Shown: positions 61,882 to 64,000 of the stretch, one piece after another
How positions within the stretch are numbered: position 1 is the stretch's first letter
Layout: every line of letters starts with the position of its first letter
DNA from: Sulfolobus sp. A20
GTDB taxonomy: Archaea > Thermoproteota > Thermoprotei_A > Sulfolobales > Sulfolobaceae
Length of the DNA: 64,000 bases
Direction: 5' to 3'
Assembly (NCBI RefSeq): GCF_001719125.1
Contig: NZ_CP017006.1
Coordinates: 186,001-250,000 of the forward strand
The notes under the pieces: model-generated
Databases searched by the model: none
Told to the model about the DNA's origin: nothing
Seen by the model: only the letters and a program-made list of their open reading frames with translations
Program-made: the position numbers and the translations under genes

Positions 61882-62475
61882 ACATATTTAATCTTGTTTA
61901 AAATATTAAAAATCTATCTCAAAACTTTTATATGAAATCTGGGAGTATGAGATATATTATACCTTCTATATTATACATCCATATCTATAGAACGTACATT
62001 AGCCACAAAGTTATACATAATCTTAGCAATTCAATTTTTTATTACAATTAAAGATTTGAGATTTCACTAATTAAGTTAATGAGAAATTTCTCTCTACTAT
62101 TTAAGTAATTCTATTCACCCTACTAAAAATTTTCGAAAAATTCAGTATACAAAAATGGAATTCTATAATTTTTCAAGATTAAGAAATATGTATTTTTTAT
62201 GGTAATAATAATAAAAATTTAAACTCCTTTTTATCCCTTCTATTTTGTGAGTAGGAGAGTTGAAACGAACTATAGGAACGAAATCAAGACTATTGTAAGC
62301 TTTATGATTCCCCCTCTCTTACTCAGCATTATAATGGTTTTATTATTTAAGGCTATAAAGAGCTTATTCTAAAAGTATGGGATTACTGTCAATGTAAATA
62401 TGAGTGAAATAGTTATTGGTTACCATGCATAAAATTCCTTAGATAAGTTTTTAACACTTGATAAAAAATATGGTT
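61882..62475. other. AT-rich intergenic region with second tnpB-relic hairpin
   Basis: 594 bp without an intact gene. Its first half is very AT-rich (61900-62220). The hairpin of the next entry lies at 62244-62327; downstream TTTATTATTTAAGGCTATAAAG resembles the TTGTTCAAAGATATAAAA stretch after hairpin A, so the 5' end of a tnpB copy is retained. The rest of that gene is lost. Confidence 0.6.
62244..62327 (+). repeat. Conserved hairpin element B
   Basis: Arms GAGTAGGAGAG (62249-62259) and CTCTCTTACTC (62314-62324) pair over 11 bp. Compared with element A at 5404-5483 three stem positions have changed with pairing preserved (G-U to A-U, G-C to G-U, G-C to A-U). Confidence 0.6.
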
Positions 62476-62479
62476 TAAG

Positions 62480-62528
62480 ATGATGATCGATGGGCGGCAA
62501 GAATTATGATGAGCCATTGTAGCACTGA
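62480..62528 (+). ncRNA. C/D-box sRNA guiding 16S rRNA methylation, candidate
   Basis: C ATGATGA (62480-62486), 11-nt guide, D' CAAG (62498-62501), 4-nt spacer, C' ATGATGA (62506-62512), 12-nt guide, D CTGA (62525-62528). The D guide GCCATTGTAGC is complementary to the conserved 16S sequence GCUACAAUGGC (11 pairs). The D' guide, by ten contiguous pairs incl. one G-U, fits CCGCCCGUCG, the decoding-site strand around E. coli 1400. TTGATAAAAAATATGG upstream (62458-62473) is a good TATA region. Box D' is non-standard. Confidence 0.8.
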
Positions 62529-62577
62529 TAGAATATTAGTTAAGTTTTTTGTTTTGAATGTTAGATATTTAATTATG

Positions 62578-62994
62578 ATGCTAACTAACAAGTATTCAGA
62601 GATTTGGGATCTAATAGTAGGATTAACTAGAAAGGTCAATAAAGAGGCAGATAAAGCTCTAGAAGAGCTAGGTTTATCTTATTTTGAATACAAGGTTATG
62701 TGCGCACTAGAGGAAGAAGGTAAGGTTCCTATGAGTAGAGTCGCTGAGAAATACATGCTAACTAAAGCAGGACTTACTAGTATTATAGATAGACTTGAGG
62801 AGAAGAATTACGTAACTAGGATAAGAAGTGAGGAAGACCGAAGAGTTATATATGTGGAGCTTACTGATAAGGGACGAGAGAAATTAGCACAAAGCAGAAA
62901 AATCTTTGGTGAAGTTATAGAAAGATTTATGAAAAAATTGGATAATAATGAGCTAGATAACTTAGAGAAAATACTTACTAAATTAATTGGGTAA
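62578..62994 (+). CDS. MarR-family regulator
   Basis: 138 residues from ATG 62578 (ATG 62575 is equally possible). A longer frame from 62506 overlaps the C/D-box RNA and is rejected. MarR winged helix: LSYFEYKVMCALEEEGKVPMSRVAEKYMLTKAGLTSIIDRLEEKNYVTRIRSEEDRRVIYVELTDKGRE, with the D-x-R-x-x wing. Regulators of this family answer to aromatic compounds or oxidants in Sulfolobus. It points toward the amt gene, to which it is convergent (22-bp gap). Confidence 0.88.
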   Translation: MLTNKYSEIWDLIVGLTRKVNKEADKALEELGLSYFEYKVMCALEEEGKVPMSRVAEKYMLTKAGLTSIIDRLEEKNYVTRIRSEEDRRVIYVELTDKGREKLAQSRKIFGEVIERFMKKLDNNELDNLEKILTKLIG

Positions 62995-63016: not shown

Positions 63017-64000
63017 TTAATCTTTTCCTTTTTCCTTTGTTTCTTCATCCATAGCCTTAGCTTCTTCAACAGCCTCTTTAGGCTTAACGCTTTCAGGGAT
63101 TGCTGCTAATAACTCAGAATACGCAACTTCTCCATGTACTGCATAATCACCAATTGCCAATACTTGAGGTGGAGATTGCAAAGGAATAAATAGTCCAATT
63201 AATTTTAGCAAGCCAAAAGTTATTGCAAAATCATATACAAATACTATGACCGCAGCTAAAGCTTGAATACCTAATTGATACCAATTACCGTATAATGCTC
63301 CTCTTAATCCAGGGGCAATAAACTGAGTTACAGCAGGATTTGCAAAAACTCCGGTTAGCAAACCACCTACAATTCCAGCTATTCCATGAGTAGAAAAGAC
63401 ACCTAAGGTATCGTCCACCTTTAATTTTGGCTCTAACCAATATAAGGCCATCCATGGTATACTACCAGAAGCTATACCGATTAACATTGCCTCCCAACCA
63501 TTAACGTAACCAGCAGCTGGTGTAATTGCTACTAGACCAGTTATAGCACCACTTGTGGCACCTACAAGAGTAGGCTTTCCGAAAAACTTCATATCCATTA
63601 GCATCCAAACTACTGCACTTACTGCAGTAGCAATATTGGTATTAAGCACAGCAATGGCAGCATCAATGGTCGCACCACCTGGATCGCCTCCATTAAATCC
63701 GTCCCAACCTAACCATATAAGCCCCGCACCTGCTAATATTAATGGAAGACTATGTGCTTCTAATTTTCTTTCTGAAGCTAGTCTAGGACCTATGGCTAAT
63801 GCTGCTGCTAATGCACCCACACCCGCATCTACGTGTATCACGTAACCTCCAGAGAAATCTACAGCCCCTAATTGGTTTAACCAACCACCCGCAAATAACC
63901 AATACGCTACTGGACTATAAACTAATAAGGACCAGAAAGGAACGAAAACCATCCAGGCTTTAAAGTTCATCCTCTCCAATACTCCACCTGCTAACAATAC
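63017..64000 (-). CDS. amt: Ammonium transporter Amt, C-terminal part (partial)
   Basis: The frame continues past the right window edge, so about 330 C-terminal residues of a protein near 480 long are seen. Membrane helices with [55 protein letters not shown] are the Amt/Rh core; the channel His pair lies in VIHVD and FSTHG. The last 50 residues are a charged cytosolic tail ([24 protein letters not shown]). Imports NH4+/NH3. Whether a GlnK gene follows is not visible. Confidence 0.93.

Follow-up and report, generated by a model that had tools for sequence, protein, structure and literature searches.

The question raised by positions 62480-62528 of Sulfolobus sp. A20, within the stretch of 64,000 nucleotides analysed here (the window; contig NZ_CP017006.1, positions 186,001 to 250,000), is whether a short sequence carrying C/D-type boxes upstream of a MarR-family gene encodes a guide RNA and, if so, which ribosomal nucleotides it would address. 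Read as RNA on the forward strand, the element is AUGAUGA-UCGAUGGGCGGC-AAGA-AUU-AUGAUGA-GCCAUUGUAGCA-CUGA, complete and in the order C-D′-C′-D. It comprises a C box that fits the RUGAUGA consensus (ATGATGA, 62480-62486), a 12-nt D′ guide (TCGATGGGCGGC, 62487-62498), a degenerate D′ box (AAGA, 62499-62502) that reads UUGA in five congeners, a 3-nt D′-C′ spacer (ATT, 62503-62505), a perfect C′ box (ATGATGA, 62506-62512), a 12-nt D guide (GCCATTGTAGCA, 62513-62524) and a D box (CTGA, 62525-62528), the C, C′ and D boxes being aligned in the congeners. When both strands were scanned, the strict C-D′-C′-D motif was found once in the window, and it occurred in 0 of 60 Markov-random windows. Given the full box order, the uniqueness of the motif in the window and the conservation described below, the C/D-box sRNA that an initial annotation had placed at these positions was upheld with its coordinates exact.

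The single 16S rRNA gene of the genome (G000:C1:284123-285616, minus strand) was used to examine the pairing of both guides. The D′ guide forms 10 contiguous base pairs, one of them G.U, with 16S positions 1360-1369 (CCGCCCGUCG), and its fifth nucleotide before the D′ box lies opposite C1363, which corresponds by alignment to Escherichia coli C1402 and is the predicted site of 2′-O-methylation. The D guide forms 11 contiguous base pairs, again with one G.U, with positions 1194-1204 (GUUACAAUGGC), and its fifth nucleotide makes a Watson-Crick pair with A1197 (E. coli A1236), the second predicted site. The G.U pair of the D guide arises from a U, rather than a C, at E. coli position 1234 in the 16S of this genome, and a mismatch adjoins the D box; no comparable alternative site for this guide was found in the genome's own 16S or 23S rRNA. 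The initial annotation had matched both guides to universal 16S stretches, and both do pair with the own 16S, but the GCUACAAUGGC that it cited, which E. coli and other families of the order possess, is absent here and is replaced by GUUACAAUGGC. It had also placed the D′ site near the m4Cm1402 region; the region was right, but "near" was too loose, as the fifth-nucleotide rule selects C1402 itself. In the ribosome, C1402 faces the P-site part of the decoding centre, whereas A1236 belongs to the head.

That two independent matches make chance unlikely, as had also been argued, holds for one guide better than for the other. The D match is strong and the D′ match by itself weak evidence, because shuffled guides equal the real match in 0.27% of trials for the former and in 5.3% for the latter, which is rich in G. 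The guide matches alone are therefore suggestive rather than conclusive. At the level of sequence, it is conservation that confirms the element as real. A BLAST search with a 100-base query matched five congeners at 88-91% identity, the similarity being confined to query positions 32-85, that is, to the element, whereas the flanks are not conserved. Across the order, the D′-guide pattern was found in 33 of 197 genomes and the two-guide pattern in 28 of 197 (families f1, f3, f7, f8 and f10), the reversed control giving 0 in either case. Within the family of the window, a C1402-type D′ guide in a C/D frame was present in all 31 genomes examined, a count obtained with the original D′-guide pattern together with pattern variants. 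CGA[U/C]GGGCGG and the D′ register are retained in 27 of the 28 two-guide loci, and C1402 is fixed as the site because the D′ box stands in these exactly one nucleotide after GGGCGG. For the D guide, the register could be read directly in 19 of the 28; in the others, the D boxes escaped the strict pattern. With respect to architecture, the D′-C′ interval, short in the window sRNA, is longer in the loci of family f8 (L058-L066), nearly all of which retain both guides, and is hairpin-like in L058-L061.

Guide and target also vary together at E. coli position 1405, as far as the 16S sequences of relatives could be read. The guide has C opposite G1405 in family f10 and U in family f3, where the 16S of a genus-mate has A1405; in the family of the window, U faces G (G.U). 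In the 16S of one relative (L033, from G042; CCGCCCATCG), A replaces G at the 1405 equivalent, and a guide of the CGAUGGGCGG type is fully complementary to it.

The D guide has a different history from its partner. Within the genus of the window, the A1236 guide was recovered by pattern in six of seven genomes, the seventh having a diverged copy; it is also retained in four families besides that of the window; in most other genera of the Sulfolobaceae, however, it has been replaced while the D′ guide was kept. Because the D guide was not kept there, methylation of A1236 would appear to be dispensable in most of those genera, and, with the C1402 guide constant and the D guide replaced, the function that has been maintained throughout is therefore that at C1402, A1236 being an ancient partner that much of the Sulfolobaceae has lost. 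The replacement D guides, of CUGCAGC and UUUCAAGG types, gave no convincing target in the own 16S or 23S rRNA. In many Sulfolobaceae genera (L011, L013-L016, L070-L073 and L096-L100), the D guide is a different one, in most cases with CUGCAGC as its core ahead of the D box.

Together, the terminal C/D and internal C′/D′ motifs, the pairing at the fifth nucleotide and the conservation as a discrete RNA gene are those by which archaeal box C/D sRNAs are recognised, and a double-guide sRNA aimed at 16S, as first proposed, is the best reading, both guides and the D′ and D registers being kept across families. Judged from these features, the element very probably encodes an archaeal double-guide box C/D sRNA for 2′-O-methylation of 16S C1363 and A1197. 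Starting from what was observed here (the motif, the pairing with the own 16S, the N+5 register and the deep conservation), the sRNA is presumed to be transcribed and assembled into an RNP that methylates its targets, and may also play a part in folding. The RNP would form by assembly of L7Ae, Nop5 and fibrillarin on both motifs, C/D and C′/D′, and 2′-O-methylation would be directed to C1363 by the D′ guide and to A1197 by the D guide. Several points count against this reading: the degenerate D′ box, the ease with which shuffled guides equal the D′ match (about 5%), the loss of the D guide from most other Sulfolobaceae genera, and the fact that Cm at this position goes unmentioned in the main text of the S. 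solfataricus 30S study cited below.

Three other explanations were weighed against this proposal. The longer MarR reading frame, open from an ATG at 62506 through the element, could suggest a chance C/D-like sequence within the 5′ region of a coding sequence; the MarR homology, however, begins at 62575, the similarity between congeners ends at the ends of the element, and other congeners keep the element after tRNA-Ala with no adjoining MarR gene, a conservation pattern that refutes this explanation and leaves it practically no probability. The sRNA could instead be genuine with the D′ guide (C1402) alone active, the D guide serving pairing or folding only or being in decay. The replacement of the D guide in most Sulfolobaceae genera, with retention of the D′ guide, points in this direction, as do its mismatch next to the D box and its G.U pair in the own 16S, but the 11 contiguous base pairs with a Watson-Crick pair at N+5, and the fact that the genus of the window and four other families all keep this guide, make a D′-only sRNA unlikely.

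A folding-chaperone model has been proposed for sR15 and sR17 of Nanoarchaeum equitans (PMC4644070), and with this precedent the sRNA could be seen mainly as a chaperone that joins 16S 1194-1204 and 1360-1369 during head/neck assembly, methylation being secondary. Two guides that are coupled in five families and whose targets lie in a single domain, some 166 nt from each other, would fit such a role. It is nonetheless quite improbable as the main function, since the methylation-competent D′ register is maintained in 27 of 28 loci and the guide pair has been abandoned by most Sulfolobaceae genera. Returning to the methylation guide as the preferred reading, a broader proposal is put forward tentatively, as possible rather than probable: the sRNA may represent an ancient crenarchaeal guide family with C1402 and A1236 guides coupled across at least five families, the universal decoding-site methylation may be RNA-guided in archaea as in eukaryotes, and the second contact may have been selected for ribosome head assembly.

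The architecture is that of the double-guide box C/D sRNAs described in Sulfolobus, Pyrobaculum and Pyrococcus (sR RNAs), with RUGAUGA/CUGA boxes, internal C′/D′ motifs, 12-nt guides, a 3-nt D′-C′ spacer and rRNA targets at N+5. In Rfam 15, no family combines guides to C1402 and A1236, and nothing reached the gathering threshold; the best sub-threshold match, sR3 (RF01133; 25.9 against a cut-off of 41 bits), shares the C/D box frame, has other guides and was rejected. A C1402 guide of the CGAUGGGCG type may already be among the 61 published sRNAs of S. acidocaldarius. Cm at the C1402 equivalent has been mapped in P. abyssi (Cm1369), E. coli (RsmI), yeast, human and plants, and in plants AtU43 guides 18S Cm1645, the equivalent of human Cm1703 and yeast Cm1639 (PMC11542601). 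A Sulfolobales guide for C1402 is therefore expected rather than surprising. The main text of a cryo-EM study of the S. solfataricus 30S subunit, which reported 25 modifications, names no Cm at this position (PMC11698992). The window sRNA resembles eukaryotic U43 in the RNA-guided 2′-O-methylation predicted for the C1402 equivalent, the target position being all that the two share, and differs from it in having a second guide, to A1236. The bacterial enzymes RsmI and RsmH (m4Cm1402) modify the same 16S nucleotide, which receives a 2′-O-methyl group (PMC5053481, PMC11542601), but are stand-alone proteins, whereas the window sRNA would act as an RNA guide.

The analysis thus names a specific guide for the putative decoding-site methyl group at C1402 in Sulfolobaceae. 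Methylation of this nucleotide occurs in all three domains; in bacteria it is carried out by proteins, in eukaryotes by guide RNPs. A guide that is kept by all 31 genomes examined in the family, while its partner turns over, provides a clean test case for the question whether the guides of archaea and eukaryotes share a common origin or arose by convergence, as well as whether loss of Cm1402 affects decoding.

The genomic setting of the element differs between the window and its relatives. Dicistrons of a tRNA and a C/D sRNA are known for tRNA-Ser of I. hospitalis, tRNA-Pro of T. tenax and tRNA-Val of N. equitans (PMC7994747). A similar arrangement is seen in congeners (L003, L005, L006 and L007, at about 1421-1551), where the sRNA follows a complete tRNA-Ala(CGC) by a few nucleotides, whereas in the window genome, for which 62380-62480 was compared, this linkage is missing and the tRNA lies at G000:C1:1274806. 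A neighbouring ORF (63017-63997, minus strand), an ammonium transporter by sequence, has an orientation relative to the sRNA opposite to that in L007, and a rearrangement has therefore broken the link to the tRNA. Some 26-32 nt ahead of the C box, the TATA-like TTTTTAA at 62448-62454 (+) is a possible element that might provide the sRNA with a new promoter. Downstream lies the gene for the MarR-family regulator (62575-62994, +; Pfam MarR, 3.4e-12); its start had been moved clear of the sRNA in the initial annotation, and 62575 is supported by the ORF of L007, which aligns from the same ATG.

In L004 (1501-2464) and L095 (near 1500), only the 3′ part of tRNA-Ala was matched before the sRNA. In L004, an archaeal integrase ORF (Pfam PF16795, 2.9e-23) runs outward from what remains of the tRNA, and an element integrated into tRNA-Ala seems to have separated the sRNA from the tRNA. 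In the window genome, three tRNA-Ala-like genes (L023, L024 and L025) are each followed by similar sequence beginning with a GTGGGG run (CTGTGGGGGATACCCCCAC in L023), and these sequences are perhaps remnants of related integrated elements.
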